Of a DNA stretch of 64,000 nt, positions 9,376 to 58,912 are shown one piece after another. The position numbers and the translations under genes are program-made. The stretch is from Arachis hypogaea (taxonomy: Eukaryota; Streptophyta; Magnoliopsida; Fabales; Fabaceae), in the NCBI RefSeq assembly GCF_003086295.3, contig NC_092054.1, positions 57,017,546 to 57,081,545 of the forward strand, written 5' to 3'. Numbering within the stretch: the stretch's first letter is position 1; every line of letters starts with the position of its first letter. The notes beneath the pieces were generated by a model, which did not search any database, was not told the origin of the DNA, and worked only from the letters and a program-made list of their open reading frames with translations.

Positions 9376-10628
9376 GGCAACTGGGGCTTTACCTCCAGAA
9401 ATCAACAAACATAAAAAAAGAAAGCTCATCAATGACGCAAAGTATTTTGTTTGGGATGAACCATATCTCTTCAAGAAGTGTTCAGATAGAATCCTGAGAA
9501 GATGTGTTTCGGAAGAAGAGGGACGAGAGGTCTTGTGGAACTACCACGGCTTGTGCTATGGAGGCCATTTTGGAGGGGATAGAGCTGCGGCCAAGGTGTT
9601 ACAAAGCGGATTCTTTTGGCCCACCCTATTAAAGGATGCCAAAGAACTAGTAAAGAACTGCAATGAATGTCAAAGACCTGGAAACCTACCCAAAAGAAAT
9701 GAGATGCCACAGAATTTTATCTTAGAACTAGAACTGTTTGATGTGTGGGGAATCGATTTCCTGGGACCATTCCCAACCTCATATTCAAACAAGTACATCT
9801 TGGTAGCAGTGGATTACATTTCTAAGTGGGTAGAGGCTATTGCAACCCCAACGAATGACAACAAAGTGGTCATGAACTTCCTCAGAAAGAACATCTTTAG
9901 CTGGTTTGGAGTCCCACGAGCACTTATCAGTGATGGAGGGAGCCATTTTTGTAACAGACCACTAGAAGCTCTCCTCCTACGATACGGAGTGAAACACAAA
10001 GTTGCCACACCTTACCACCCCTAAACCAGTGGGCAAACCGAGATATCTAACAGAGAGCTAAAAAGGATCCTGGAAAAGACTGTAGGAGCATCAAGAAAGG
10101 ATTGGTTGAAAAAGCTGGATGATGCTCTTTGGGCATACAGAACGGCATTCAAAACACCAATCGGGATGTCCCCATATCAACTGGTGTATGGAAAGGCCTG
10201 TCATTTACCATTGGAGTTGGAACACAAAGCCCTCTGGGCTCTCAAGCTACTAAATTTTGATAGCGTTGCTGCTGGTGAAAAGAGGGTCTTGCAGTTGCAG
10301 GAAATGGAGGAATTCAAATCTCAAGCCTATGAAAATGCCAAAATTTATAAAAAAAAAGGCAAAGAGAAGGCACGACCTCCATCTGACACCCAGGAGCTTC
10401 GAGAAAGGACAGCAAGTGCTCCTCTACAACTCCAAATTAAAACTTTTCCCTGGAAAACTCAAGTCAAGGTGGTCAGGACCTTTTCTTGTCACAAAGGTCT
10501 CGCCATATGGACACATAGAAATCATGGAGGAAAGTTCAAGGAGGACGTTCACTGTGAATGGACAAAGGTTCAAGCACTACATGGGCAACATGGGGGAAAG
10601 CCCCAAAATGAAATATCATCTCAACTGA
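9376..10628 (+). pseudogene. G1 integrase (broken)
   Basis: Integrase inserts the DNA copy into the genome. The H2C2 zinc-binding part runs from the HGLCYGGHFGG block (about 9545) to CNECQRPGN (about 9660). The catalytic core has DVWGIDFLGPF, LISDGGSHF (second Asp present at 9932-9934) and [14 protein letters not shown]. There is a stop at 10022-10024 just before the third catalytic region. A frameshift at an A9 run (10349-10357) leads into the C-terminal [14 protein letters not shown] domain, which ends at 10628. Confidence 0.88.
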
Positions 10629-10638
10629 TGGAGAAATC

Positions 10639-10686
10639 GTCGAGCTAGCGACACTAAAAGAGTGCTTCGTTGGGAGGCAACCCAAT
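10639..10686 (+). ncRNA. Two-hairpin module after G1 pol
   Basis: Hairpin 1 is GTCG-AGCTAG-CGAC (10639-10652). Hairpin 2 is GTTGGG-AGGCAA-CCCAAT (10669-10686), with one G-U pair. Hairpin 1 starts 10 nt after the last stop codon. The same two-part structure occurs at the equivalent place in G2, N1, N2, N3 and N4. The structure is predicted by eye and its function is unknown. Confidence 0.65.
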
Positions 10687-12962: not shown

Positions 12963-14150
12963 CTACTCGTCGGAGGTGGGAGAGTCTGGGAGCGGAGGTA
13001 GCTCAATACCCTGTGATACAAACACCTGGTCTATGCGATTGAGACGTCGCATGATGCGACGCTCGCTGCGCTCTATGAAGCGAAATAGGCGCTGTACAAG
13101 CAGGTACGTCGGCTCAGGTGCTTGTGGTGGTGGCAAGGATGCTGCCGCTGAAGTAAAGGAGGGTGCTGCCGCTGCTGATGATGAAGGCTGAGTTGCCTCC
13201 ACCACTACTCTGGCTCGAGAGCAACGTCTAGGTGGAGGCTTCTCGTGCACCCACCCACCCCATGAAATAGTAACCTTCTTGTCGTCGTCATCTGGGGGTG
13301 GTGGTGTCACGTCGTCGTCCTCCCTCGGGACATCAGCTAGCTCAATCATGCTGGTGACCAGTGTAGGAAATGGCAGTAAGCCATGAATGTGTGTGCGCCA
13401 CATGCTCTGCCTGATCAGCCGGGGGAATTCTACCTCCTTCCTCTCCATGACACAGCCAATAAGGACTAGGATATCCATCGGAATCTCTGAGAAGTGAATG
13501 GTGGTCAAGACATAATGGGCGAATATATGCTGCCAAGTCTTAGCATCTCTCGACAGATAAGTGAAAAGCATCCCCTTGGGCTTCTTGTTCCCAGAATCCA
13601 TCACCCAAGGGGCGTCAAGTGTGGCAATCACGTGCTTCAGCACCTCATAATCAAAAGTCATGCAGTGGATAGCTACCTCTGCCTGCTGACAGGCGCATGG
13701 GTCGCTAGTACGAGGTCGGCAAAGCAATGCCTCCCCAATAGCTGCCTCGGTGATCAAAATCTCTCTACCCCTCAGGTGGACTGAATCAAGGGTGGCACGA
13801 AAGAAGTTGCAGTAGAACTCCCTCACCCACGAAGTGTTTATCCTCCCCAAATCTCTATCAACAAAGTCCAAGCCCAACTCCATAATACAGCTATTGATGG
13901 CGTGTCTCACATCATTGGGAAGGACCAGTTTTTTCTCAATATTCAGATTCGTCTTCCGGTATTTGGGGAAGCGAAGCTCACAGTAGAGATTGGAAAACTT
14001 GATTGGATCAGTGGATGGGAGTAGCTGATTCTCTTTGTCCACTTCATTTAGTGGATTCTTAGCATAATTAGCATAAGGAGAAGGGGTAGAGGCTTTAGAG
14101 CGCTTCCTCTTCATTGAAGTAGTGGCTATAGCTTTTCCTTTGTCTGACAT
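12963..14150 (-). CDS. N2 ORF2, putative plant transposon protein (PF20167-like)
   Basis: 395-residue open frame starting MSDKGKAIATT with a basic, Lys/Arg-rich N-terminus (MKRKRSKAS). The middle carries the block WVREFYCNFF (about residues 108-117) followed by HLRGREI and, further on, THIHGLLPFPTLVTSMI. These resemble the 'putative plant transposon protein' family found downstream of pol in Athila-like elements, from memory. The C-terminal third is low complexity: Asp/Pro, then Ala/Ser, then Pro. The G2 ORF at 42342-43463 looks like a distant member. The function is not established; the basic start would suit nucleic-acid binding or nuclear entry. It is probably cut short by the stop at 12963. 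Confidence 0.7.
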   Translation of the reverse strand: MSDKGKAIATTSMKRKRSKASTPSPYANYAKNPLNEVDKENQLLPSTDPIKFSNLYCELRFPKYRKTNLNIEKKLVLPNDVRHAINSCIMELGLDFVDRDLGRINTSWVREFYCNFFRATLDSVHLRGREILITEAAIGEALLCRPRTSDPCACQQAEVAIHCMTFDYEVLKHVIATLDAPWVMDSGNKKPKGMLFTYLSRDAKTWQHIFAHYVLTTIHFSEIPMDILVLIGCVMERKEVEFPRLIRQSMWRTHIHGLLPFPTLVTSMIELADVPREDDDVTPPPPDDDDKKVTISWGGWVHEKPPPRRCSRARVVVEATQPSSSAAAAPSFTSAAASLPPPQAPEPTYLLVQRLFRFIERSERRIMRRLNRIDQVFVSQGIELPPLPDSPTSDE

Positions 14151-16710: not shown

Positions 16711-16761
16711 GGTGGGGTGTCTCCCACCAAGCACTTTTGGTTTAAGTCCTTTAAGTTGGAC
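16711..16761 (-). ncRNA. Two-hairpin module after N2 ORF1
   Basis: On the minus strand hairpin 1 is GTCC-AACTTAAA-GGAC (16761-16746), and hairpin 2 is GGTGGG-AGACAC-CCCACC (16728-16711). Hairpin 1 starts 17 nt after the ORF1 stop codon, with 17 nt between the hairpins. Confidence 0.7.
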
Positions 16762-18604: not shown

Positions 18605-20043
18605 TGATGAGAGAACTTTTGCGTGGTCTAGAAAATTGCGGATAAATCCTCGTTGCAAGTATAGTTTCTAAACCTTCAAAAGTCCTTTCATACAAACGTT
18701 TTAGTTGTCACAAGTAACAAACCCCTTTTAAATTGATAACTGAGTATTTAAACCTCGGGTCGTCTTCTCAAGGAATTGCAGGGAGGTATGTTCTTATTAT
18801 TGGTTATGAGTTTGTAAATTAGGGAAATTTGGAGTTTGGGCAATGGGCACAGGTATATTTTCAAAGCAATAAAAATAAATAAATAACTGAAAAATAAGCT
18901 TTTGGCAAGGTATGAGAACCGGAAATCCTGTCCTTGTTATCCTTATCAGATGTGATGAGAATTGGATTTCAATCCCACTTAGTTAAGTCAAGTGGACTAA
19001 TTAGCTTGATTCTCAAGTCCTAGTCAACTCTTGTGGAGAGACTAGTGTTAGAGCAATCCTAGCTAAAGCAAAATCTGCCAATTTCAACCACTCCTGAGTT
19101 TGACAACTCAAGTGTTACCAATTACCTAACCAAAACCAAAAGGAAGAAAATATCTAAATTAAATTAAAAGCAAAGCAATCTTAAATCTGAAATACCTCAA
19201 ATAATATTAATTAAGAAAATCATAACATGAATGTAGCATAAGCCAAATAGGCAACATAACTAATATAAGCATTAAAGTATCTGAACGTAAGAGATAAATA
19301 TAAAGTAAAAGAACGTTGAACCTGGGATTGAGAGTCACTCCTAAAACTAAGAGAAATCCTAAATCCTAATCCTAAGAGAGAGGAGAGAACCTCTCTCTCT
19401 AAAAACTACATCTACTCCTAAAATTGTGAATTATGAGAGCCTCCTTATGAATGGATGCAATTCCCCACTTTATAGCCTCTAATCTGTGTTTTCTGGGCCA
19501 CAAACTGAGTCAAAAACAGTCCAGAATTCGCTGGTTTTGAATTTTGCCACGCTGGATTTCTGTCACTGCGACGCGGCCGTATGGATCACGCAGTTGCGTC
19601 ACCTAGCGTCAGGGGAACTATAGTATATTATATATCAAATCGAAGCCCCAGACGTTAGCTTTCCAACGCAACTAGAACTGCGTCGTTTGGATCTCTGTAG
19701 CTAAAGTTATAGCCGTTTGAGTGCAGAGAGATCAGGCTGGACAGCTTAGCAATTTCTCCAACTTCTTGCATTCCTTCCACTTTTGCATGCTTTCTTCCCA
19801 TCCTCCAAGCCATTCTTGCCTTATAATATCTGAAAACACTTAACACACATATCAAGGCATCTAATGGTAATAAGAGATGATTAATAATAAGCAAATATAA
19901 GATCAAAGAAGCATGTTTTCAATCAAAGCACATAATTAGGAATGCAAATGTAAAACCATGCAAATAATATGAATAAGTAGGTAAAGAGTAGATAAAAACC
20001 ACTCAATTGAGCACAAGATAAGCCATGAAATAGTGGTTTATCA
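18605..20043 (-). mobile_element. N4 3' LTR
   Basis: 1439 bp. On the minus strand it carries a TATA box (CTATAAAGTGG, about 19465-19476) with the CpG word cluster GCGACGCGGCCG...GCGTCACC just upstream at 19555-19610. Left flank GTGCG is the target duplication. Confidence 0.9.
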
Positions 20044-21526
20044 ACCTCCCCACACTTAAACACTAGCATGTCCTCATGCTAAGCTCAAGAGAAGCTATAA
20101 AGATGAAGAGGAATGGTAGGATGTATGAAATGTAATCCTATCTATATGAATGCAACTACATGCAAAATGTTTCTACCTACTTGGTTAAAAATAAATAAGT
20201 TCTCCAAGACAAACATAAATCGGATTTCACTAATTCAAATCATAAAATAAAAATCAGGTAAACTTGTAAGAAGACAGCTCATGAAAGCAGGGAACATAGA
20301 ATCAAGCATTGAACCCTCACTGGTAGTGTATATCACTCTAATCTCTCAAGTGTATAGGGTTATTCACTCTACTCTTCTCTAGTCATGCTTTCTAAACCTT
20401 GTTCTTCATCTAACCAATCAACAAATATTTAATGTACCAATGCAAATATCATGAGGTCTTTTCAAGGTTGTAATGGGGCTGAGGTAAAGGTAAGGATATA
20501 TGTATGGCCAAGTGAGCTATAATATGAATCTTCAATTAACCTAAGCTCTCACCTAATATACATATACTCTATATACTTTTAAATTCATGTCTAGCTACCC
20601 ATAATTCTCACTTTTGTATAATTCCCATACTCATGTACCAAATTTTTCTTTAATTTTTATCACATGTGCATTGATCTTTTATTAAACTTAATATTGGGGT
20701 AATTTTGTCCCCTTATTTACTTATTTATTGAGTATTTTTGGATTTTTCTCTTTTTTCTCTTTTTTTTCTTTCTTCTTTTTTTTTTATTTAGAGAAACAAA
20801 CATAACTTATCAATGCACATGGATTTTCTATTATTTTTCTATTTTGGTTTTTCATGAGTAGGTTCCCAAATTCCTAATATTCAAATAAATTAGAAACATT
20901 ATACTTTTTCTTTATTAACCCATGTTCCCACAGTTTTCCCATACTTAATTAACACACTATCTTAAGCTAACCAAAGATTCAGTTGGGATATTTAATTATT
21001 TTTCTGCTTTAAGGCTAGTGATGTGGTAAAATACAGAACAAGAGGGGTTAAAAGGCTCAAAGTGGCTGACAAGGGTGATTTAAAGGGTAGATTTATTTGG
21101 GATAAGTGAGCTAAAATCAAATAATGGCCTCAATCATATGCAAACATGTAAATACACTAAATAATGGACATATAGGTTGGAACAAAATATAGATTACAAT
21201 CATAGAGAAGGGAACACACAGGAATAAAATATTTATGGTTAAATAATGTAACCATGTAAATAAGCTCAAAGTCTCACAGGTTGTGTGTTTTTTTGACTCA
21301 AAAATCATGTTCCAAATACAACTTCAAACAAATAAAAATTTTTATTTAAATTAGTGAAAAAAAAAATTTTTTTCAAAAATAGGATCTTAAAAAGAGATTT
21401 ATTATTTTAACCAAGTAGTAACTAAATGCACAAAATCAAATAAATATGCAATCAAATATGCAGATGCAACAATGAACAAATAAAGAAAATAAGATTATTG
21501 GTGTTGAAAAGAAAGTACTAACCCAC
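20044..21526 (-). mobile_element. N4 3' internal non-coding region
   Basis: Starts at the LTR with a purine tract reading AAGTGTGGGGAGGT on the minus strand (20057-20044), the expected primer for plus-strand DNA. The rest is AT-rich with poly-pyrimidine runs (20750-20790). The only open frames are short and look random. It includes a marker phrase shared with N2 ('cacttaaac...tagcatgtcctcatg'). Confidence 0.7.
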
Positions 21527-21556
21527 GGAGGTCGGTATCGACCTCCCCACACTTAA
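21527..21556 (-). promoter_or_regulatory. 8-bp hairpin fused to a second polypurine-like tract in N4
   Basis: Minus strand: AAGTGTGG leads into GGAGGTCG-ATAC-CGACCTCC (21546-21527), a perfect 8-bp stem with a 4-base loop. The purine part copies the tract at the 3' LTR about 1.5 kb away. N1 has a similar but weaker structure near 47893-47915. Confidence 0.6.
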
Positions 21557-21696
21557 AGATTGCACCATCCTCGGTGCATGCTGAGATTTGCAGGTGGATG
21601 GGTTGTTTCAACTGTTGCTTTTCTCCAAGGATTGTGCAGATGGACTTGTCTGTCTCCCCATGTAAAATGTCTTTCGCTTCCCTTCCGGGTGGCCAT
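21553..21696 (-). CDS. N4 short ORF (47 residues), possible ORF2 remnant
   Basis: Begins MATRKGSERHF and ends SMHRGWCNL. It sits between the CpG cluster and the 3' end, where N2 has ORF2, and its basic start loosely resembles ORF2's (SDKGK). The ATG follows TTTCTTTCAGG, which could be a splice acceptor. N1 carries a related but broken stretch at 47743-47880 (with AWRTIQTF or SMHRG-like ends). Whether it is translated is unknown. Confidence 0.45.
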   Translation of the reverse strand: MATRKGSERHFTWGDRQVHLHNPWRKATVETTHPPANLSMHRGWCNL

Positions 21697-21699
21697 CCT

Positions 21700-22220
21700 G
21701 AAAGAAAAAAGGAAGAAGAGTAACCCAGAAATAGAGATAAGAAAATAAAAGAAGTATAGGTTAATGCCAAATGATAAGGGTCTCATTTACATGGAAGCTT
21801 CAACATGTAAGTGAGAAAACAATAGAAGCCATGGCATACCAATGGTGCAAAATTTGCAACAATGGGGAAGAGAGTGAGTAATGAAAGACAATGTGAGTTC
21901 ATGTAAATGCAAAAGGAATATCAGTATTATAAAAGTTAGGATTGATTTAAATAATATTACCCAATCAGAATTAAACAAGTCACTAAGCACCAAGAAAATA
22001 CCAGAAAAGATGTAACAGTTGAATAAGAACATTTGTACACCAATAATAAATTTAGAAAAATAAAAATATGCAATGAATGAAAGTATTCAAATAATTAAAT
22101 AAAATAAAATGAAAGTGAAAAACAATGAGAAGTAGAAAAAAAAAGAAAGTGAGAAAGGAGAGAGAAGGAAGAAATTAGGATTAGGAGAGAAAAGATAAGA
22201 AAATTGGCACTAATCTGGAT
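21700..22220 (-). mobile_element. N4 spacer between the word cluster and the short ORF
   Basis: AT-rich non-coding DNA. On the minus strand it begins with a CT-rich stretch following the CpG cluster, the same order as in N1 and N2. No recognisable coding content. Confidence 0.5.
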
Positions 22221-22224
22221 AGGT

Positions 22225-22770
22225 TGTGCGACGCTAGCGACGCGGTCGCGTGGGTGACGCGGTCGCGTGATGCGCGATAAGGTTGGGTGACGCGAATGCG
22301 TGGGGCACACGATCGCGTGACCTGAATTGTGCTAGTGGCGCGAGTGCAGCCTCGCGGTCGCACAACTCTCTGTTCAAAACTCAGTATTGCCAAAATCCAA
22401 GGTGACGCGGTCGCGTGGTCGACGCGATCGCGCGGGTGGCCTTATTTCCAATATGACGCGGACACGTGGGTGACGCGTTCGCGTGGCAGGGCTTATTCTA
22501 CTAGCACGGGTCTAGCCCAATTCCAGCATAACTCTCTGCCATACACCCTTTTTATGCCGATTTCAGGTCACGCGGCCGCGTGGGTGACGCGGTCGCGTGG
22601 GAGGCCATTATTCCCATATGACGCGGTCGCGTCAGCGACGCGGTCGCGTGGGGTGATTTGTGCCATTGGCACGCCTCCAGCGCTGCTCCTGCGAAACTCT
22701 CTGTTCATATTAATATTGTCTCCCATCTCCTTGCAACGCAGACACGTCGCTGATGCAGTCGCGTCGCGTG
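22225..22770. repeat. GACGCGGTCGCGTGGG word cluster, N4 internal
   Basis: About 15 copies of GACGCGGTCGCGTGGGT and variants, often in adjacent pairs about 18 bp apart, with 30-60 bp of unrelated spacer between pairs. The same word is in N4's own LTRs (best at 25760-25795), but it is not the word used by N1, N2 or N3. It is not a CRISPR array, because spacing is irregular and the units are palindromic CpG words. Confidence 0.85.
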
Positions 22771-22922
22771 CTCGCTTTTTTTTTTTTTTTGTAATCTGAA
22801 AAATGCAAAATGCAGTGTTAATATGAATGTGATGCAAAACTCCAGGTTCAATATAACAAAATAGAATAAAATTCAAAAACAAATAAAACTAAATAAAAAC
22901 TAAAAAGAAACGATCATACCAT

Positions 22923-22972
22923 GGTGGGTTGTCTCCCACCTAGCACTTTTAGTTAAAGTCCTTAAGTTGGAC
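22923..22972 (-). ncRNA. Two-hairpin module after N4 ORF1
   Basis: Minus strand: hairpin 1 GTCC-AACTTAA-GGAC (22972-22958), 17-nt spacer, hairpin 2 GGTGGG-AGACAA-CCCACC (22940-22923). It starts 17 nt after the ORF1 stop. Confidence 0.7.
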
Positions 22973-22989
22973 ATTTGGTGAGCTCCCTG

Positions 22990-24441
22990 TTATGGTGGCT
23001 TGTGTTTGAACTCATCCAGGAATCTCCACCAATGTTTGTGATTCCAATGGCCTCCGGGGTCCCAAACTAAGCATGTAAAGCCTTTAAAAAGCTTCAAACA
23101 GATTCTTAGGCTCCCGGGGCGACAAATGTCAGAGCAAATTCCAAGATCCCAAACTTTGCTTTTACACCTATTTTTGTCGGGATCTGTATTTTTCCAGCTG
23201 GGTGATAAGTAATTTGAATTCTCACTGCAGCTACCAAACAGCTTCCTAGACCCATTCAGTTGAGCTTTATACCAACCCTTGCGTTTGAACTTAAAGCTTC
23301 CAACCATGATGAACCTTGTAGGACAATTCTTACCACTGGCCATCTTCCTCTTACTCTTAATATCACAAAGAGCTCTAAGTTGACCATCCGTCTCCAGTAG
23401 CCCATATTCAAGTGGGATTAGAAAGCTATGGGATATGAATTTTACCCACTTGAATGTTGTGAAGGATGATGGCAACTTAGGGGGAGGTATTTTTAATGAA
23501 ATTGCAAGTTCCACTCCCTTGTGCTCTTCTCTGATAATTACCACCTCTTTGCAAGCTTCTTCAATTTCAACCTCTTCCTCTTGGCAGCTCTCTTCTAATT
23601 TAATCTCCTCTTTATTGCTTTCTAAGGGCATGGGAGGTTGTGCTTCTTCTTCTTGAATCTCCATTTCTTGATCAACCTCTTCCAAGTCTTCAACTGTGAT
23701 ATGCCTTGGAGGTTGTACACCCTCCTTAGCATCAAATTCAACCGTCTTGGAAGGAGGCTCTATGTCTTGACTTTTCCATGGAGGTTCTGCATCTCCTAAG
23801 TCTTCAACCAACTCTTCTTCTTGAACAATGACAGCTTCTTCTACTTGTTCTAGTATGAATTCATTCTCTGTCTTGTCCACTGGGGTTTCTGGTATCTCCT
23901 TCATGCTACGCTCTTCACTAGACTATCCACATGGGGCTGTGGCTGATCCTTGTGTATTTGAGCGCCTATAAGCCCATTGAATTACTGCTTGCTCCAGTTG
24001 TTGAACGGTTGCCTGAAATTTAATTACTGTTTCCCTTAGGCGAACCTCTGCTTCTCGGGTTGCCAGACTTGGACATGATACAAAAGAAAGTGGTGGTGGT
24101 TGGAAGTGATTGGATTGGAATTGGGGTGGTTCTATATATGGTTCATATGGCTCATAAGGTGGTTGGTATGGTGGTTGAGGGTTAGGGTCATATGGAGGTG
24201 AATGGCGGAAAGGGGCTTGTGAGTTTGGTGGTCCAAAGTTATGTTGAGGAAAGGGTTCATAGGCATATGGTGGTGGTTGTTAATAGTCCATTGGAGGTGG
24301 TTGTTGCCATGAGGATTGATCAAGTCCTTGTGGCTCCTCCCATCTTTGATTGTTCCAACCTTGATGCCTGTTCTCATTGTAATTTCTTCTTCCTGCAACA
24401 TAATTGTAACCAGACTCATAGCCAAAGGGGTGAGAGTTCAT
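22990..24441 (-). pseudogene. N4 ORF1 (two premature stops)
   Basis: Start ATG at 24441 opens MNSHPFGYESG. Next is a Pro/Tyr-rich section (PYQPPYEPYEPYIEPP), a helical segment (REAEVRLRETVIKF), a Glu-rich centre, and the conserved C-terminal block (FKWVKFISHSF, IPLEYGLLETDGQLRALC) ending EFKHKPP at 22990. The whole 484-codon frame is open except for TAA at 24280-24282 and TAG at 23923-23925. No enzymatic domain, zinc knuckle or gag core is visible. It may be a structural or RNA-binding protein, but that is a guess. Confidence 0.75.
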
Positions 24442-24449
24442 AGTAAAAA

Positions 24450-24720
24450 AATAAAAATTAAAATAATAAAAACAAATTGAAATTAAAAGGTTATTTAAAT
24501 TTTGAATTTAAAAATTAAATTTTGAATTTTGAATTTTAAATTTTTGAAATTTGAATTTTTTTTTTTTTGAAATTTGAAATTTGAAAGTTTTTTTAAATTT
24601 TAATTTTAAAAAATTTTTAAATTTGAATTTTGAAATTTGACTTTTGAAATGAGATAAGATAAGATAAAAATTTTAAAATAAAAATCAATAACCTCTTAAT
24701 TTAATAAAAATAAAAATAAA
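24450..24720. repeat. AT-rich low-complexity leader of N4
   Basis: Runs of 'aaatttgaattttgaa' and its inversions between the primer site and ORF1. It is non-coding and probably replication-slippage derived. Confidence 0.7.
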
Positions 24721-24776
24721 AACAAATCAAAAAGCAAATATTTACAATAACCAATAATAAGGCACACGTTTGCAAT

Positions 24777-24794
24777 TCCCCGGCAACGGCGCCA
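24777..24794 (-). promoter_or_regulatory. N4 primer-binding site (tRNA-Asp type)
   Basis: Minus strand TGGCGCCGTTGCCGGGGA, a full match to the complement of the plant tRNA-Asp 3' end. It begins three bases after the 5' LTR. Confidence 0.9.
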
Positions 24795-24797
24795 TTT

Positions 24798-26235
24798 TGA
24801 TGAGAGAACTTTTGTGTGGTCTAGAAAATTGCGGATAAATCCTCGTTGCAAGTATAGTTTCTAAACCTTCAAAAGTCCTTTTATACAAACGTTTTGGTTG
24901 TCATAAGTAACAAACCCCTTTTAAAATTGATAACCGAGTATTTAAACCTCGAGTCGTCTTCTCAAGGAATTGCAGGGAGGTATGTTCTTATTATTAGTTG
25001 AGTTTGTAAATTGGGGAAATTTGGAGTTTGGGCAATGGGCACAGGTATATTTTCAAAGCAATAAAAATAAATAAATAACTGAAAAATAAGCTTTTGGCAA
25101 GGTATGAGAACCGGAAATCCTGTCCTTGTTATCCTTATCAGATGTGATGAGAATTGGATTTCAATCCCACTTAGTTAAGTCAAGTGGACTAATTAGCTTA
25201 ATTCTCAAGTCCTAGTCAACTCCTGTGGAGAGACTAGTGTTAAAGCAATCCTAGCTAAAGCAAAATCTGCCAATTTCAACCACTCCTGAGTTTGACAACT
25301 CAAGTGTTACCAATTACCTAACCAAAACCAAAAGGAAGAAAATATCTAAATTAAATTAAAAGCAAAGCAATCTTAAATCTGAAATACCTCAAATAATATT
25401 AATTAAGAAAATCATAACATGAATGTAGCATAAGCCAAATAGGCAACATAACTAATATAAGCATTAAAGTATCTGAACGTAAGAGATAAATATAAAGTAA
25501 AAGAACGTTGAACCTGGGATTGAGAGTCACTCCTAAAACTAAGAGAAATCCTAAATCCTAATCCTAAGAGAGAGGAGAGAACCTCTCTCTCTAAAAACTA
25601 CATCTACTCCTAAAATTGTGAATTATGAGAGCCTCCTTATGAATGGATGCAATCCCCCACTTTATAGCCTCTAATCTGTGTTTTCTGGGCCGCAAACTGG
25701 GTCAAAAATAGTCCAGAATTCGCTGGTTTCGAATTTTGCCACGCTGGATTTCTGTCACTGCGACGCGGCCGCATGGATCACACGGTCGCGTCACCTAGCT
25801 TCTGGGGAACTATAGCATATTATATATCAAATTGAAGCCCCGGATGTTAGCTTTCCAACGCAACTAGAACCGCGTCGTTTGGACCTCTGTAGCTAAAGTT
25901 ATAGCCGTTTGAGTGCAGAGAGATCAGGCTGGACAGCTTAGCAATTTCTCCAACTTCTTGCATTCCTTCCACTTTTGCATGCTTTCTTCCCATCCTCCAA
26001 GCCATTCCTGCCTTATAATATCTGAAAACACTTAACACACATATCAAGGCATCTAATGGTAATAAGAGAGGATTAATAATAAGCAAATATAAGATCAAAG
26101 AAGCATGTTTTCAATCAAAGCACATAATTAGGAAGGCAAATGTAAAACCATGCAAATAATATGAATAAGTAGGTAAAGAGTAGATAAAAACCACTCAATT
26201 GAGCACAAGATAACCCATGAAATAGTGGTTTATCA
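24798..26235 (-). mobile_element. N4 5' LTR
   Basis: 1438 bp, paired with 18605-20043. TATA box CTATAAAGTGG on the minus strand near 25657-25667, with a CpG word cluster upstream at 25740-25800. Right flank GTGCG is the target duplication. Confidence 0.92.
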
Positions 26236-26617: not shown

Positions 26618-26667
26618 GGTGGGATGTCTCCCACCTAGCACTTTTGTTTATTGTCCTTAAGTTGGAC
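26618..26667 (-). ncRNA. Two-hairpin module after N3 ORF1
   Basis: Minus strand: GTCC-AACTTAA-GGAC (26667-26653), 17-nt spacer, GGTGGG-AGACAT-CCCACC (26635-26618). The first hairpin starts 17 nt after the ORF1 stop at 26685. Confidence 0.7.
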
Positions 26668-33679: not shown

Positions 33680-33732
33680 ATTATCTAACTTAAAGATAAT
33701 GAATGAAAGTGCTAGGTGGGAGACACCCCACC
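33680..33732 (+). ncRNA. Two-hairpin module after N1 ORF1
   Basis: Hairpin 1 is ATTATC-TAACTTAAA-GATAAT (33680-33700), a 6-bp stem of quite different sequence from the GTCC/GGAC stems of N2-N4 but with the same AACTTAA loop. Hairpin 2 is GGTGGG-AGACAC-CCCACC (33715-33732). Both stems are kept although bases differ, which supports selection on structure. Confidence 0.72.
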
Positions 33733-35281: not shown

Positions 35282-35287
35282 AGTTTT

Positions 35288-35305
35288 TGGCGCCGTTGCC
35301 GGGGA
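35288..35305 (+). promoter_or_regulatory. G2 primer-binding site (tRNA-Asp type)
   Basis: TGGCGCCGTTGCCGGGGA, six bases after the LTR end. Confidence 0.92.
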
Positions 35306-36312
35306 TTGTTCGTGTTTGAACAACTGACGGATTATTTGGTTGCTTAGATTAGGAAAAATCTTCCCTTTTTTGGTTTAGAGTCTTTTATTATTTATCCCTT
35401 GTTAAAATACTTTAAACTTATAGCTCAGTTATTTAGAACGTGGTGTTTATGTTCATGATAATTGGCTATCATATTTTTCAAAAAAAAAAAAAAAACCTTT
35501 TTCAAAAAATAATTTTTCTATTAAATCCTGTGCCAAACTTTAAGTTTGGTGTTTTCAAAAATAATCTTTCTTAAAATTTTTGAAGGTCCCATAACTCATT
35601 TGGCTAGAGTGTTAATCTGTGTTCTTGGTAATTGGGTTAGAATCTTTTATACTCTTTTCAAAACCTTCTTTTTCAAAAATATTTTTTTCTATTAAATCTT
35701 GTGCCAAACTTTAAGTTTGGTGTTTTCTTGTTGATTTCCCTTTGATTTTCGAAAATTTTGGTTTGGTTTTCTAAAAATTTTAAGTTTGGTGTTCTTCCTT
35801 CATGTTCTTGTGTTCTTGTGAGTCTTCAAAGTGTTCTTGAGTTTCCTTGTGTCTTGATCTTAAAATTTTTAAGTTTGGTGTTCCTTGGTGTTTTCCCTCC
35901 AAATTTTTCGAAAACAAGGAGCATTAGATCTAAAAATTTTAAATCTTGTAATATCTTATTGTTTTTCTCTCTCCTCACTAAATTCAAAAAAATATCTTTT
36001 CAAAATATCTCTTCTAACTTCCTAACTTCTTATCTTTTCAAAATTTGTTTCAACTAACTTTTTGTTTGTTTCTTAACTTTTTCAAAACTACCTAACTAAC
36101 TCTCCCTCTCTCTAATTTTCGAAAATATCTTCCCTCTTTTTCAAAAATTCCTTTTTTTTATTAACTAATTAATTTTTTTTATAAACGAAAAAAAAAATTA
36201 TTTTCAAAATTCAAATTCTTTTTAGTTATTTTATTTTATTTAAGTGTTTACTTCTTATAAAATAAAATAAATAAAAAGATAAATCAGTCCAAGTTATATC
36301 CATACATCCATC
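35306..36312 (+). promoter_or_regulatory. G2 untranslated leader with repeated word
   Basis: About 1 kb, very AT-rich and non-coding. It contains four copies of TAAGTTTGGTGTT (35541, 35711, 35781, 35870). Two of them extend to the palindrome CCAAACTTTAAGTTTGG (about 35533 and 35705). Later it has poly-T and TTTTCAAAA runs. The open frame at 35758-36057 is composition only. Confidence 0.65.
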
Positions 36313-37620
36313 ATGGACATAAGTGGAAATGAACAGTCCAGGAGGACTCTGGGGTCATATTCTAACCCCTCTACTGCTTCATATGGAAGTAGCATCTGCA
36401 TACCCTCCATTGGAGTCAGTAGCTTTGAGTTGAATCCTCAGCTCATTATCATGGTGCAGCAAAGTTGCCAGTATTCCGGTCTTCCACAGGAAGAACCTAC
36501 AGAGTTTATGGCACAATTTTTACAAATTGCTGACACAGTACATGATAAGGAAATAGATCAGGATGTCTACAGACTATTACTGTTTCCATTTGCTGTAAAA
36601 GATCAAGCCAAGAGGTGGTTAAATAACCAACCTAAGGCCAGCATAAGAACATGGAAACAGCTGACAGAAAAATTCCTGAATCAATATTTCCCTCCAAAAA
36701 GGATGACACAGCTAAGGCTGGACATCCAAGGCTTTAAACAATGAGATAATGAATCTCTTTATGATGCCTGGGAGAGATACAGAGAGATGCTACGAAAATG
36801 CCCCTCTGAAATGTTTTCAGAGTGGGTTCAGTTAGACATCTTCTACTATGGGCTTGCAGAAGGAGCTCAGATGTCTTTAGATTACTCAGCTGGTGGATCT
36901 ATCCATATGAGAAAGACAATTGAAGAAGCTCAAGAGCTCATTGATACAGTTTCCAGGAATCAGCATCTGTATCTAAGCAGCAACCCTTCCATGAATGAAG
37001 AGGTTAAAACAGTAACTGCTGAATTCAGTACTGTAAAACAAGCTGCTGAATTCAATCAGCAATTAGATTTTCTAACAAAACAGCTAGCTGAATTCAAAGA
37101 CAGGTTACAGGAGACAAGGATAGCTAATATACATATGGACGAACAGTTTAAGCAAATAAAGCAGCAGCTATCAAAGCAAATAGCAGAAGAATGCCAAGCA
37201 GTTCAATTAAGAAGTGGAAAAATATTAAATACCCCACCTCAAGGCATCAAAAATTCAAGAAATGAGCGACCCACCAAAGATTCCCCTGAGGACAGTAAGA
37301 GCCCAGGGAAAAATAATTCTGGCACTAAAACGCCAGAAAATGGGTGGAAGGCTGGCGCTGAACGCCCAGACTATGCCCAAAACTGGCGTTCAGCGCCAGA
37401 AACAAGGCAGGATTGGCGTTCAACGCCAGAAATGGGCAAGAATCTGGCGTTGAACGCCCAAATGGGGCAGAATCCATCATTGAACGCCCAAAATGGGCAC
37501 ATTTCTGGCGTTCAGGCGCCAGGAACAGACAGTGAGCTGGCGTCTAACGTCACTCCAGCTTCTGACTCTGGCATTCAATTGCCAGTGAGGGATCAGACAC
37601 ACACAAGTGCTGACAACAAC
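36313..37620 (+). pseudogene. G2 gag with in-frame TGA and inserted word cluster
   Basis: Starts MDISGNEQSRR. The Retrotrans_gag core spans about 36400-36960: SFELNPQLI, YRLLLFPFAVKDQAKRWL, LNQYFPPKRM, and then, after a TGA at 36742-36744, [15 protein letters not shown] in the same frame. The stop falls inside the capsid domain, so it is damage and not a gag-pol recoding site. A helical part follows ([14 protein letters not shown]). Residues encoded by 37335-37555 are GGCGTTGAACGCC words read in frame (NAQ, APE and ERP repeats). No zinc knuckle is visible. Confidence 0.9.
37335..37555. repeat. GGCGTTGAACGCC word cluster inside G2 coding sequence
   Basis: About eight copies in both orientations (for example CTGGCGTTCAGCGCCAG near 37383 and TTGGCGTTCAACGCCAG near 37413), in frame between gag and protease with no stop. 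The same words lie in the LTRs and at 41588-41815. G1 has no such insert at the matching place. Confidence 0.85.
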
Positions 37621-40600
37621 CCCTCTAAAAAGGCTTCTTTAACCACTAAGGTTGAGGAATATAAAGCTAAGATACCTTATCCTCAAAAACTCCGGAAAGA
37701 GGAGCAGGATAAGCAATTTGCTCACTTTGCAGATTATCTAAGGACTCTTGAAATAAAGATTCCATTTGTAGAGGCACTTGAGCAAATACCTTCTTATGCC
37801 AAGTTCATGAAAGAGATCTTGAGTCATAAAAAGGAGTGGAGAGAAACAGAAAGAGTTCTCCTCACTGAAGAATGCAGTGCAGTCATTCTGAAAAGCTTTC
37901 CTGAAAAGCTTAAAGACCCTGGGAGTTTTCTGATACCATGCATATTGGAAGGTGATTGCACCAAGACAGCCTTATGCGATCTTGGGGCAAGCATCAACCT
38001 AATACCTGCATCCACTATCAGGAAGCTTGGCTTAACTGAAGAAGTTAAACCAACCCGGATATGTCTCCAACTTGCTGATGGTTCCACTAAATACCCATCA
38101 GGCGTGATTGAGGACATGATTGTCAGAGTTGGGCCATTCGCCTTTCCCACTGACTTTGTTGTGCTGGAAATGGAGGAGCACAAGAGTGCCACTCTCATTC
38201 TAGGAAGACCCTTCCTAGCAACTGGACGATCCCTCATTGACGTCCAACAGGGGGAAATAACCCTGAGAGTCAACGATGACGAGTTCAAGTTGAACGCTGT
38301 CAAAGCCATGCAGCATCCAGACACATCAACAGACTGCATGAAAGTTGACCTTATTGACTCTTTGGTAGAAGAGATCAACATGGCTGAGAGTCTCGAATCA
38401 GAGTTGGAAGACATCTTTAAAGATGTTCAGCCTGATTTGGAGGATTCAGAGGACATGAAAGAGCCTCTGAACTTTCTTCTAAAAGAGGAAAAACCTCCTA
38501 AACCCGAGCTCAAGCCACTACCACCATCCTTGAAATATGCATTTCTGGGAGAAGGTGACACTTTTCTAGTGATCATAAGCTCTTCTTTAAATTCACAGGA
38601 AGAGGAAGCACTTATTCAAGTGCTAAGGACACACAAGACAGCTCTTGGGTGGTCCATAGGTGACCTTAAGGGCATAAGTCCAGCTAGATGCATGCACAAA
38701 ATCCTATTGGAGGATAATGCCAAACCAGTGGTTCAACCACAGAGGCGGCTAAATCCAGCCATGAAGGAAGTGGTGCAGAAAGAGGTCACCAAATTACTAG
38801 AGGCTGGGATTATTTATCCCATTTCTGATAGCCCCTGGGTGAGCCCTGTTCAAGTCGTCCCAAAAAAGGGAGGCATGACAGTGATTCATAATGAAAAAAA
38901 TGAACTGGTTCCTACAAGAACAGTTACAGGGTGGCGCATGTGTATTGACTACAGAAGGCTCAATACAGCCACCAGAAAGGATCATTTTCCTTTACCATTC
39001 ATAGACCAGATGCTAGAGAGACTAGCAGGTCATGATTATTACTACTTTTTGGATGGCTATTCAGGCTATAACCAGATTGCAGTGGATCCCCAGGATCAAG
39101 AGAAAACAGCATTCACATGTCCATCGGGAGTGTTTGCTTATAGAAGGATGCCATTTGGGCTATGTAATGCGCCTGCAACCTTCCAGAGATGCATGCTCTC
39201 TATTTTCTCTGACATGGTGGAAAAATTTCTGGAAGTCTTCATGGATGACTTCTCAGTATATGGAGACTCATTCAGCTCCTGTCTTGATCACCTGAAACTT
39301 GTTCTGAAAAGATGTCAAGAAACCAACCTAGTTTTAAACTGGAAAAAGTGTCACTTCATGGTGACTGAAGGAATTGTTCTTGGGCATAAAATCTCAAACA
39401 AGGGAATAGAGGTGGATCAAGCAAAAATAGAGGTAATTGAAAAATTACCACCACCTGCCAATGTTAAGGCAATCAGAAGTTTTCTGGGGCATGCAGGATT
39501 CTATAGGAGGTTTATAAAGGATTTTTCAAAAATCGCAAAACCTCTAAGCAATTTGCTAGCTGCTGACACGCCATTTGTGTTTGACACAGCATGCCTGCAG
39601 GCGTTTGAAACGCTGAAAGCTAAGCTGGTCACAGCACCAGTCATTTCTGCACCAGACTGGACATTGCCATTTGAGTTAATGTGTGATGCCAGTGATCATG
39701 CCATTGGTGCAGTATTGGGACAGAGGCATGACAAGCTTCTGCATGTCATTTATTATGCCAGTCGCGTTCTAAATGATGCCCAGAAAAATTACACAACCAC
39801 AGAAAAAGAACTACTTGCAGTGGTTTACGCCATTGACAAGTTCAGATCATACTTAGTAGGATCAAAAGTGATTGTGTATACTGACCATGCTGCTCTTAAA
39901 TATCTACTCACAAAGCAGGATTCAAAACCCAGGCTCATCAGATGGGTATTGCTTCTGCAAGAGTTTGATATAGAAATAAGAGACAGAAAAGGGACAGAGA
40001 ACCAAGTAGCTGATCATCTGTCCCGGATAGAGCCAGTGGAAGGGACGTCCCTCCCCTTCCTTGAGATCTCTGAGACGTTCCCTGATGAGCATCTATTTGC
40101 CATTCAGGAAGCACCATGGTTTGCCGATATTGCAAACTATAAAGCTGCAAGGTTCATACCCAAGGAGTACAATAGAATACAAAAAAAGAAACTAATTACT
40201 GATGCAAAGTACTACTTGTGGGATGAGCCCTATCTCTTTAAGAGATGTGCAGACGGAATTATCCGTAGGTGTGTCCCCAGAGAGGAAGCACAGAGAATCC
40301 TATGGCATTGCCATGGATCTCAATATGGAGGCCATTTCGGAGGTGAGCGAACAGCCACCAAGGTTCTCCAATGTGGCATCTACTGGCCCACACTCTATAA
40401 AGATTCCCGAGAGTTTGTACGTAATTGTGACAGTTGCCAAAGAGCTGGTAATCTGCCTCATGGTTACGCCATGCCTCAACAAGGAATCTTGGAAATAGAG
40501 TTGTTTGATGTATGGGGAATTGACTTCATGGGACCTTTCCCACCATCATACTCAAACACTTATATTCTGGTGGCAGTTGACTATGTATCAAAATGGGTTG

Positions 40601-41394
40601 AGGCTATTGCCACACCCACCAATGATACTAAAACAGTGCTGAAGTTCCTCCAGAAACATATCTTTAGCAGGTTTGGTGTCCCTAGAGTGTTAATCAGTAA
40701 TGGGGGCACTCACTTCTGCAATAAACAGCTTTACTCTGCCATGGTTCGGTATGGAATTCGCCACAAAGTAGCCACTCCATATCATCCACAAACCAACGGG
40801 CAAGCTGAAGTCTCTAACAGAGAATTAAAGAGAATCCTGGAACGGACAGTAAATACCCGTAGAAAGGATTGGGCAAGGAGCTTGGATGATGCTCTGTGGG
40901 CTTACAGAACAGCATTCAAGACCCCTATAGGGACCTCTCCATACCAACTCGTGTATGGTAAGGCATGCCACTTGCCCGTGGAACTGGAACATAAGGCCTA
41001 CTGGGCAACCAGATTCCTAAACTTAGATGCCAAATTAGCAGGAGAAAAACGATTGCTCCAGCTAAATGAGCTAGAGGAATTCAGATTCACAGCTTTCGAA
41101 AATGCCAAGCTTTATAAAGAAAAATCAAAAAAATGGCATGACAGAAAGCTGTCATCTAGAATCTTTGAACCAAGATAGAAGGTCCTGTTGTTTAACTCTA
41201 GACTCAGGCTATTCCCCGGGAAACTGAAATCCCGGTGGAGGGGACCATACGTGATTACAAGTGTGTCACCATATGGTTATGTGAAGCTTCAAGATATTGA
41301 TTCTGATAAGAAGTTCATTGTCAATGGACAGAGAATCAAGCATTATCTTGAAGGCAACACTGAGCAAGAATGCTCAAGGCTGAAGCTAGATTAA
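37621..41394 (+). pseudogene. G2 protease-RT-RNase H-integrase polyprotein (three lesions)
   Basis: Same frame as gag. Protease: [13 protein letters not shown] near 37972 and [16 protein letters not shown] near 38199. [38 protein letters not shown] and active-site FMDD at 39238-39249. RNase [24 protein letters not shown] and [10 protein letters not shown]. Integrase: zinc-binding [13 protein letters not shown] to CDSCQRAGN, then [20 protein letters not shown] and [11 protein letters not shown]. The middle catalytic Asp of the DDE triad is Asn (codon AAT, 40699-40701; G1 has GAT), so this integrase should be inactive. A TAG at 41176-41178 separates the last 72 residues ([10 protein letters not shown] domain). 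Confidence 0.93.
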
Positions 41395-41406: not shown

Positions 41407-41453
41407 GTCCAGCTAAAGACAATAAAGAAGCGCTTGCTGGGAGGCAACCCAGC
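41407..41453 (+). ncRNA. Two-hairpin module after G2 pol
   Basis: Hairpin 2 is GCTGGG-AGGCAA-CCCAGC (41436-41453), a perfect 6-bp stem. Hairpin 1 is weak here, GTC-CAGCTAAA-GAC (41407-41420). It starts 12 nt after the last stop codon. The surrounding 'caataaagaagcgcttg' matches N3's 'caataaacaaaagtgctag' and G1's 'cactaaaagagtgcttcg'. Confidence 0.68.
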
Positions 41454-41815: not shown

Positions 41816-42341
41816 GACAGGGAGGAGCCAAATCCAGCAATCCCACACGTATTTCCATTTTAATTTCAAATTTTATGCTTCAATGTATGATTTTTACATG
41901 AACATATCAAGAACCCTGGTTTCTAAAATCCCTAATTTCTAAAAATCCATCTTTCCAAATTCAATCCAACTCTTTTCAAAATCTTTTCTGAAAACAAATC
42001 TATCTTTTTCACTCAAAAATCTTTTCAACTAATCCATATCTTTTTCAAATATCCATAGTATCTTTTTCAAAATTCAGACTTATCTTTTTCAAAAATCTAT
42101 CATATCTTTTCAAAATTAAACTCTATCTTCTATCTTATCTTTTTCAACTCAATCTTTTTATCTTATCTCTTCCTTTTTTTTTCGAAAAGCCACCCCCCAC
42201 CCCTTTAAAATTGGGTTCGGCCTCCCCCTCCTCCATCAACAAGTGCACCTCGATCTCCTTCTATCCCTCTCCTTTCTTTTCTTTTGCTTGAGGGCAAGCA
42301 AACCTCTAAGTTTGGTGTGTTTTTCCGAGATCACTAAGATC

Positions 42342-43463
42342 ATGGCTCCCAAAGGGAAACAATACACTCCAAGAGGCAAGAAAGAGAGCGTTCCAAAACC
42401 ACTTTGGAATCAAGAAAAGTTCTTATCTAAAGAACATTCAGACCATTACCTTAAAGTAATGGGTCTGAGATCAGTGATCCCGGAAGTGAGATTCGATCTG
42501 AAAGAAGATGAATATCCGGAGATCCAGGAGCAAATTCGAATCAGGAACTGGGAAGTCCTAGCTAATCCTGAAACGAAAGTAGGAAGGAACATGGTCCAGG
42601 AGTTCTATGCTAATATGTGGCAGACTGACAAGCAAAGACTATCTGGAACTGCCTGCTATGAATTTCAGACCATGGTCAGGGAAAAAATTGTTCATACCAC
42701 CCCTGACAAGATCAGAGAGATACTAAAGCTACCTCAGCTAAAGGATGATCCAGACTCCTTCAACAGGAGGATGATGAGAGCAGACATTGGCCTGGATAAG
42801 ATTCTAGAGGACATCTGTATCCCTGAAGCCAGGTGGACCACCAACACAAAGGGCGTCCCAAATCAACTCAAGAGGGAGGATCTCAAACCAGTTGCCAGAG
42901 GATGGCTGGACTTCATTGGGCGTTCTCTGTTGCCCACCAGCAACCGTTCTGAAGTCACAGTTAAAAGAGCAGTGATGATTCATTGCATCATGATGGGAAA
43001 GGAAGTGGAGGTTCATCAGCTGATTTCAACAGAGCTCTATAAGATTGCTAACAAAAATTCAAGAGAGGCCAGGTTGGCTTATCCAAGCGTGATTTCTCTG
43101 CTCTGCAAGGACGCTGGAGTCAAGATGGGAATAACTGAATATATCCTAATTGAAAAGTCAATCACCAAAGCATCAATGGAGAGACAACAAGCACAGGAGG
43201 AACATATCAAGAAGAGAGCACAGGAATTCCTCCCAGAGATTCCTCAAGCGGAATATTGGGAATATCTTGAGACGTCTGTCACCAAGATACAGGAAGCTAT
43301 GGAGCAAATAATAAAACAACAGAAGGAACACAGTCAAATGCTGACCCATATGCTTAAAGAACAAGAGGAGCTGGGACGTGACTTAAGGGAACTGAAGCGC
43401 CAAAAATCTTCTGTGATACCAAGCCTCCCAAGGATCAGAGGAACCCCCATACCCCCAGAATAA
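42342..43463 (+). CDS. G2 ORF2, putative plant transposon protein (PF20167-like)
   Basis: 373 residues, intact. ATG 42342 (MAPKGKQYTPRGKK) is preferred over the longer upstream opening because it starts a basic segment, as in N2's ORF2. The block VQEFYANMW (about residues 85-93), RGWLDFIGRSLLP and TVKRAVMIHCIMMG recall N2's VREFYCNFF and IHGLLPFPT. The last 90 residues are Gln/Glu/Lys-rich and should form a coiled coil. It sits downstream of pol where Athila elements carry an extra, env-like-positioned ORF; I see no membrane segment or signal peptide. The function is unknown. The frame being intact while gag-pol has three lesions is notable. Confidence 0.75.
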   Translation: MAPKGKQYTPRGKKESVPKPLWNQEKFLSKEHSDHYLKVMGLRSVIPEVRFDLKEDEYPEIQEQIRIRNWEVLANPETKVGRNMVQEFYANMWQTDKQRLSGTACYEFQTMVREKIVHTTPDKIREILKLPQLKDDPDSFNRRMMRADIGLDKILEDICIPEARWTTNTKGVPNQLKREDLKPVARGWLDFIGRSLLPTSNRSEVTVKRAVMIHCIMMGKEVEVHQLISTELYKIANKNSREARLAYPSVISLLCKDAGVKMGITEYILIEKSITKASMERQQAQEEHIKKRAQEFLPEIPQAEYWEYLETSVTKIQEAMEQIIKQQKEHSQMLTHMLKEQEELGRDLRELKRQKSSVIPSLPRIRGTPIPPE

Positions 43464-58908: not shown

Positions 58909-58912
58909 ATGC

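Follow-up and report, generated by a model that had tools for sequence, protein, structure and literature searches.

Why should retrotransposons with and without a pol gene carry the same short structured RNA directly behind a stop codon? This question is raised by six elements in the window (the entire 64,000-nucleotide stretch of Arachis hypogaea DNA analysed here), for which the initial annotation proposed a common module consisting of hairpin 1, an A-rich spacer and hairpin 2. Each stretch was cut out and read, and all six modules are present at the proposed positions and on the proposed strands, with the same order of parts and GYGCT at the end of the spacer. They are listed here together with the stop codon preceding the first:

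10639..10686, + strand: module G1, with hairpin 1 at 10639-10652 (GTCG/CGAC), a spacer with GTGCT, and hairpin 2 at 10669-10686
10626..10628, + strand: TGA stop codon of the G1 pol C-terminal frame, 10 nt 5' of the module
41407..41453, + strand: module G2 (FIDEL-related), with hairpin 1 at 41407-41420 (3 bp plus C x A) and hairpin 2 at 41436-41453 (GCTGGG/CCCAGC)
33680..33732, + strand: module N1, with hairpin 1 at 33680-33700 (7 bp) and hairpin 2 at 33715-33732
16711..16761, - strand: module N2, with hairpin 1 at 16761-16746 and hairpin 2 at 16728-16711
26618..26667, - strand: module N3, with hairpin 1 at 26667-26653 and hairpin 2 at 26635-26618, 17 nt after a 628-aa ORF1
22923..22972, - strand: module N4, with hairpin 1 at 22972-22958 and hairpin 2 at 22940-22923, 17 nt after ORF1 (22990-23922)

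The core TGGGAGRCANCCCA occurs six times in the 64-kb window with zero mismatches, and these occurrences are exactly the six modules. Hairpin 1 of N1 is corrected here to 7 bp (ATTATCT/AGATAAT) around AACTTAA: the loop-closing pair is T-A, and the loop is identical to those of N3 and N4. Hairpin 1 of G2, described as a weak stem of 3 bp, does consist of GTC/GAC plus a C x A mismatch, and it is identical in the two other FIDEL-type neighbourhood copies. The distance from stop codon to module, put at 10-17 nt, measures 10 (G1), 12 (G2), 14 (N1) and 17 nt (N2, N3 and N4). N1-N4 are mutually related (about 69-81% DNA identity), and the six modules are therefore not six independent cases. Identity between G and N elements is 0.60-0.76 in the module and 0.46-0.68 in the flanks (with a peak 50-100 nt upstream), set against a background with a mean of 0.55 and a 99th percentile of 0.66; the G1-N1 module identity of 0.60 is not above this background. 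The module is an island of G-N similarity whose edges are not perfectly sharp.

The elements that carry the module are plant Ty3/gypsy retrotransposons, of Athila type by label only, and related pol-less elements. Their features in the window include the following:

36283..41394, + strand: G2 gag-pol region, with gag, protease, RT, RNase H and integrase (Pfam, three pieces) and its last stop 12 nt 5' of the module
42321..43463, + strand: G2 env-position ORF, 3' of the module, matching Pfam PF20167 'Putative plant transposon protein' (E 3.6e-40)
18605..26235, - strand: N4 element between LTRs, which lie at 18605-20043 and 24798-26235 and are 97.6% identical

G2 has the protease, RT, RNase H, integrase order of Ty3/gypsy elements by Pfam, together with a pair of LTRs (33741-35281 and 44537-46097) that are 98% identical. 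Several FIDEL primer sites, from the primers given in PMC3496627, match these LTRs with 1-2 mismatches. The pol of G1 is assigned by tblastn similarity to the G2 pieces only. N1 is interrupted by the G2 5' LTR (33741), 8 nt beyond the N1 module. An env-position ORF, which is an Athila-type feature, is present in G2, and similar env-like matches lie 3' of the module in the FIDEL copies L023 and L031 and in L018, L022 and L024. The tested ORFs of N2, N3 and N4 have no Pfam match and no match to gag and pol queries at E 0.001. Both G2 and N4 carry the letters TGGCGCCGTTGCCGGGG directly 3' of the 5' LTR as common primer-binding letters. We take TGGCGCCGTTGCCGGGG to be complementary to tRNA-Asp, an assumption in keeping with the description of Diaspora and Calypso; the 20 neighbourhood loci hold no tRNA gene for comparison.

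Two other features of the window belong to the same broad class. A further gag-pol element at 55031-59718 (+), presumably Tat-like, has no module after its pol that the covariance model described below finds at E up to 1. An env-position-type ORF at 12963-14186 (-), matching PF20167 at E 1.1e-21, shares its strand with the N2 module, lies about 2.5 kb 3' of it and is a candidate part of N2.

Copies of the module are abundant beyond the window. The fixed letters GYGCTNNNTGGGAGRCANCCCA occur 35,038 + 34,796 = 69,834 times on the two strands of the 2,557,474,382-base genome, whereas the reversed pattern, used as a control, occurs 0 + 0 times. A covariance model was built from 18 copies, none of them of N type and eight of them from a set in which hairpin-2 pair 4 is changed; it retrieves eight N-type modules with E values of 8e-10 to 3.5e-6. 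In a search of 272 kb (the window, L003 and a 200-kb neighbourhood), 19 modules are found at E 3.5e-6 or better, four of which (G1, G2, L015 and L017) are the model's own sequences, together with one chance match (9.7 bits). G1 and G2 score 61.4 and 70 bits, each being itself among the sequences of the model.

The stretches around 80 copies were read, 60 drawn from the listed matches to GYGCTNNNTGGGAGRCANCCCA and 20 from those with pair 4 changed. About ten element types were distinguished by eye among the sampled copies, and copies of one type are often identical. Besides the types already named, these include GTCA/TGAC with a gag-protease ORF, CATGGG/CCCATG (L017, L032 and L033), TCGGG/CCCGA, and others. 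Similarity to pol lies 5' of the module in G1, G2, one L013 copy, L018, L023 and L031; gag or gag-protease, with no RT or integrase match in between, in L017, L022, L024 and L029; and ORF1 in the N types. The 795-aa ORF of L017 has gag and protease matches and no RT or integrase match, and L022 and L024 have gag or gag-protease upstream of the module and the env-like match downstream, with no pol match between them. The suggestion that autonomous and non-autonomous elements have the module in common thus holds and widens to three layouts, in which the module stands between gag-pol and an env-position ORF, behind gag-protease (followed in L022 and L024 by an env-position ORF) or behind ORF1. 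The commonest module type makes up 49 of 99 classed stretches, a non-random sample, and where larger stretches were read it belongs to the elements represented by L022, L024 and L029.

A second source also has the module. A full copy (L003) lies on a GTDB contig filed under Candidatus Burkholderia humilis, where Pfam identifies neighbouring transposon genes of plant type, namely Transposase_21 together with DUF4218 and a gag of Ty3 type together with protease; further along the contig the genes are bacterial as judged by eye. Two more modules occur in the same assembly, L009 (GTCG/CGAC) and L007 (CATCG/CGATG), and to the eye the ORF preceding the L007 module looks like that of L003. Pfam matches neither the 175-aa ORF that ends 15 nt ahead of the L003 module nor the 422-aa ORF that ends 18 nt ahead of that of L009. 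L009 is probably of plant origin, a placement that follows from the module alone. The plant source is presumably the leaf-nodule host Psychotria. The remark that a phrase of the module seemed familiar from other plant repeats is thereby borne out for one other source, which we infer to be a plant. In the contigs of L003 and L009, DNA that is of plant type or bears a module appears to be fused to bacterial genes (by Pfam for L003, with the bacterial genes recognized by eye), and the Candidatus Burkholderia humilis record would appear to be contaminated or chimeric.

The other database matches were set aside. The single IMG/VR match to the pattern (L001) resembles none of the gag, pol, env or ORF1 pieces and is about what chance would give by a rough estimate; the longer pattern found no match in IMG/VR, and an RT search found none. 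Of the two GTDB pattern matches, the one that is not L003 (L002) was judged by eye to be bacterial coding DNA.

Covariation was assessed with an R-scape-like test of our own making, in which a sequence motif, independent of pairing, served to locate hairpin 1. Two of 79 copies (L034 and L078) had no anchored hairpin 1 and were dropped, leaving 77 copies, 45 of them distinct; the null comprised 600 alignments re-evolved on a FastTree tree. Among the 45 distinct copies, hairpin-1 pair 4 is A-T in 26, C-G in 11, G-C in 3 and T-A in 1 (C x A in 4), and hairpin-2 pair 5 is T-A in 25, G-C in 13, C-G in 3 and A-T in 1 (T x T in 2, T-G in 1). These pairs rank first and third of 1,485 column pairs, with E values of 0.0020 and 0.0106 over the 14 proposed pairs, or about 0.2 and 1.1 over all 1,485. 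None of the remaining proposed pairs is significant singly (next best 0.18), and the inner pairs of hairpin 2 carry no information in this test because the search pattern itself fixes them. Summed over 11 pairs, the score comes to 85.3 and exceeds all 600 null alignments, the highest of which scores 58.5. With an earlier, smaller set of 31 distinct copies the same test gave E values of 0.018 and 0.054 for the two best pairs; the fall to 0.0020 and 0.0106 depends on the copies added.

Pair counts against slid and shuffled controls point the same way. In the model alignment (20 matches including the chance one, 18 of them distinct), which is biased towards the structure to which it was fitted, 93.8% of cells are paired, compared with at most 47.5% when the partners are slid, and 28 cells have double changes, compared with 10.2 +/- 2.1 after shuffling, a number that none of 500 shuffles attains. 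Earlier pair counts on the 18-copy model alignment have inflated double changes at pair 4, as eight copies come from the changed-pair set. Pair 4 is likewise inflated in the larger set of 97 copies, which holds 20 copies picked for a two-sided change at that pair; the tree-null test omits these 20. Across the genome, 875 copies have hairpin-2 pair 4 changed on both sides (all C..G among the 100 matches listed), versus 205 with C..A. Most of the inspected C..G copies are of one large type, and C..G is found in at least three contexts: this large type, the N-type copy L099 and the other-type copy L111.

One explanation for these data is that the module has no present function, the paired changes having arisen by mutation (for example, by RT template switching in a quasi-palindrome) and been inherited as blocks. 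The copies are mostly decaying repeats descended from few founders, with frequent identity within a type, and 2 of the 97 copies lack an anchored hairpin 1, as this explanation would allow. It is at odds with the occurrence of all four Watson-Crick types at each of two pairs, with a score above 600 of 600 nulls that keep the tree, and with the retention of the module while the G-N flanks are at or near background and while a second source has the module too. This explanation was already disfavoured and is very improbable. The initial annotation had argued for selection on RNA from stems that change on both sides, naming a lack of covariation, or paired changes that track phylogeny as blocks, as grounds for giving up the claim; neither was seen in the R-scape-like test, and with the tree-aware null exceeded by the whole structure and by two pairs, the argument now extends beyond the window. 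That the folded structure is under selection is nearly certain.

Single copies fold with varying success. N1-N3 form both hairpins when folded alone (z -3.2 to -4.9), and so does G2, though it is no stabler than its shuffles (z -0.28); N4 lacks hairpin 1 and forms only hairpin 2 (z -2.67), and G1 folds into some other shape than the two hairpins (z -0.93). Among outside copies, the minimum for L003 and L009 lacks the full fold (z 0.36 and -0.17), and L092 folds fully (z -2.09). Hairpin 1 is thus predicted to be thermodynamically weak in several copies, which counts against strong claims for hairpin 1 there.

In two types, the stop codon just 5' of the module lies inside or next to an extra hairpin (L057, L092 at about 82-102, L108 and others). 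The stems of this hairpin differ by paired changes: GGCTC/GAGCC, AAGCTC/GAGCTT and AGTGGCTC/GAGCCACT, and GATCCTC/GAGGATC and TCTGCTG/TAGCAGA. A third hairpin was rejected as a general feature, as the shuffle P is 0.01 for L057, L092 and L108 alone and 0.06 to 0.95 in the other 15 of 18. Dimerisation by kissing loops through an AGCU loop was also rejected: the palindrome is absent by eye from the loops of N, L018, L003, L007 and L009. The G-type hairpin-2 loop letters GGCAAC (10671-10684) are the reverse complement of GTTGCC in the primer site (35250-35320), but N4 keeps the primer site while the N loops read AGACAN, and this potential pairing with GUUGCC is probably due to chance.

The module is a conserved structured RNA element located 9-19 nt after the last stop codon of the 5' ORF, at the head of a long 3' region. 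Of 21 copies examined, 10 have an ORF of 100 aa or more (stop to stop) that ends within 60 nt of the module, and the gaps are all 9-19 nt (10, 17, 17, 17, 15, 18, 12, 9, 18 and 19 nt), with residues 0, 1 and 2 modulo 3 all represented. The longest ORF in the other 11 copies is 20 to 98 aa, ending 54 nt before the module in L013 and 22 nt before it in L018. L022 (9 nt) and L029 (19 nt) are of one type in different frames, and one of these two ORFs is probably not real. The reading frames across the module differ among copies and, with gaps in all three residues, this indicates that no read-through peptide is conserved. A stop-codon read-through element was rejected on the same grounds.

Downstream of hairpin 2, four of five groups are rich in U: the U content of the next 40 nt is 0.53 (the N/L018 type), 0.68, 0.54 and 0.54, and 0.40 in the five FIDEL-type copies, where the 40-nt windows of the whole window have a mean of 0.30 and a 95th percentile of 0.50. 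The first AUG after hairpin 2 is at +1 in N1-N4, +2 in G2 and +20 in G1, and the frames starting from it in these six copies are 2 to 38 aa long.

These features could suggest that the module and its U-rich tract govern expression of the env-position ORF through a splice acceptor, reinitiation or internal initiation. The tracts resemble acceptor tracts, the AUG lies close behind hairpin 2 in N1-N4 and G2, and the env-like match follows in G2, L018, L022, L023, L024 and L031. Yet N4 has no env-like match between its module and the 3' LTR and the N modules still keep the structure, which speaks against reinitiation as well, and neither the short frames from the first AUG nor its distance in G1 fits such control. 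We regard this role as unlikely.

A function tied to the end of translation best explains the 9-19 nt spacing, the free frame and the retention of the module across unlike elements. We favour the reading, at a probability of roughly 0.37, that the module is a termination-proximal RNA element that insulates the RNA from nonsense-mediated decay (NMD). A host or element protein would read the conserved loops (ARCUNA-like and AGRCAN); its binding to both hairpins, and in most types to the U-rich tract as well, would mark the stop codon as normal, and the multi-kilobase RNA would escape NMD and remain for translation and then packaging. Any element RNA in which translation terminates far from the 3' end would need the module, whatever the upstream ORF. 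Consistent with insulation are the covariation, the position behind the stop across unrelated ORFs, the lack of a tail peptide, the U-rich tract and the long 3' regions.

Two known systems provide a precedent, one from a retrovirus and one from a plant virus. The stability element of Rous sarcoma virus (RSE) lies right after the gag stop and is a proposed NMD insulator with a minimal length of 155 nt (PMC2925335). Like the RSE, which is described there as indifferent to the letters of the stop, the module lies immediately 3' of the stop of a 5' ORF in a long retroelement RNA: it directly follows the stop and has a long 3' region, whose length was measured in N4 (about 2.9 kb from the module to the 3' LTR). 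In contrast to the module, the RSE, as reported in the same source, requires at least 155 nt, belongs to an animal retrovirus and has a tested function; the likeness is one of position. In Nicotiana benthamiana, a structured element after the p28 stop of TCV and the first 51 nt of its 3'-UTR both confer NMD resistance according to the text of PMC6277124. This system resembles the module in having a plant host and an RNA protected by structure right after an internal stop and by the region after another stop, but in the TCV 3'-UTR segment, by the account in PMC6277124, it is a lack of structure that matters, and the module has no conserved read-through frame.

The TCV comparison also yields an argument against insulation: in that account resistance of the segment went with lack of structure, whereas the first 50 nt here would be hairpins. 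Further points against insulation are the greater minimal length of the RSE, the U content of only 0.40 in the FIDEL type, the weakness of hairpin 1 in several copies, the restriction of single-pair significance to two pairs, the conflicting frames of L022 and L029, and the larger gaps of L013 and L018.

A close rival, almost as likely as insulation, is that the module is a packaging or retrosome tag: Gag or an element-encoded factor would bind the hairpins, select the genomic RNA and also carry pol-less or gag-less RNAs. Its place after the stop would arise because ribosomes would melt it elsewhere, and a tag in the first stretch that ribosomes leave unmelted would occupy the same place as an insulator. 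Retention of the module in N elements, whose ORFs lack Pfam, gag and pol matches, is in line with packaging, as are the common primer-binding letters of N4 and G2. According to PMC4974528, Ty3 requires UTR or POL sequences for its RNA to be localised and packaged. A tag for packaging need not stay 9-19 nt from the stop in unrelated ORFs, however, and this is the feature that insulation accounts for.

The boundary between N4 and the pol-bearing copy L018 is the observation best explained by packaging:

22126..22972, - strand: N4 3' region common with L018, beginning at the first base of the module, with 66.8% identity over about 850 nt

Upstream of the module, N4 and L018 have no match over 80 nt. 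L018 has RT similarity upstream, an N-type module and the env-like match downstream; its RT matches part of a published Pipoka probe at 76% identity, and a stretch that is putatively part of L018 is 71-78% identical to about the first 285 nt of N-type LTRs, which also fits packaging. The force of the boundary is lessened by the length of the likeness, which runs for about 850 nt and does not single out the module. From these similarities the Pipoka-like L018 is likely to be the autonomous partner of the N elements. The initial annotation proposed that G-type machinery could use N-type RNA; this holds only in part, as the likely pol-bearing partner is L018, a third element, and not G1 or G2.

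Alternatively, the module could be a constitutive export element that moves unspliced element RNA out of the nucleus, in the manner of the Mason-Pfizer monkey virus RNA structure that binds NXF1/NXT1 (PMC10309623). Its position in the 3' half and its presence in all layouts would suit this role, which would leave the tie to the stop codon unexplained; in addition, none of 4,227 Rfam families matches the window at gathering score. Export is improbable, and less probable than control of the env-position ORF.

We tentatively propose that the module is a lineage-wide Athila-type RNA tag that predates the split between peanut and the second plant source, is obligatory for the use of pol-less or gag-less RNAs, and acts at the stop codon, where it would couple translation termination to what becomes of the genomic RNA. 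Strongly conserved non-coding motifs in divergent plant retrotransposons are already known from the Ty1/copia Sireviruses, where they also lie near the envelope gene and polypurine tract (PPT); according to PMC2829016, these motifs comprise copies of the PPT, LTR boxes and an inverted repeat where PPT and LTR meet, in contrast to a post-stop double hairpin in Ty3/gypsy elements. Athila, Calypso and Diaspora are like the present elements in their single gag-pol frame, a primer site (for tRNA-Asp there, and presumably here) a few bases after the LTR, a frequent env-position ORF and many pol-less relatives, but an RNA hairpin after pol is not among the features described in the passages of PMC2410132 and PMC1142308 consulted. 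Soybean Diaspora is env-less, and its pol stop lies 128 bp from the PPT; for this post-pol region the authors report no significant database matches, and the same passages of PMC1142308 report no RNA structure.

A search of open-licence PMC text for GGGAGGCAACCC returned one E. coli paper only, and among the open-licence PMC papers listed by further searches no title or opening of an abstract describes the two-hairpin module. As far as these searches show, it would, if the reading as a tag is true, be the first control element tied to a stop codon to be described from plant LTR retrotransposons. Two questions about plant retrotransposons are, to our knowledge, largely open: how the elements mark their own RNA to be protected or packaged, and which features a non-autonomous element has to retain if it is to be mobilised. 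Some 70,000 exact-core copies are present in one crop genome, and both questions become testable with ordinary reporters, given an element of about 50 nt whose structure is clear, whose position is fixed and which comes in tens of thousands of natural variants. The module is also a compact non-coding diagnostic mark for the group, including the pol-less elements that protein-based annotation can miss.

Another short phrase, AAGTTTGGTGT, recurs at several places on the + strand. Four copies (35542, 35713, 35782 and 35871) lie in the G2 leader before gag, one (42308) lies before the G2 env-position ORF, and one (44524) abuts the G2 3' LTR at the expected place of the polypurine tract. Three further copies (10756, 10805 and 10990) lie 3' of the G1 module, with the complementary ACACCAAA or CCACCAAA nearby.
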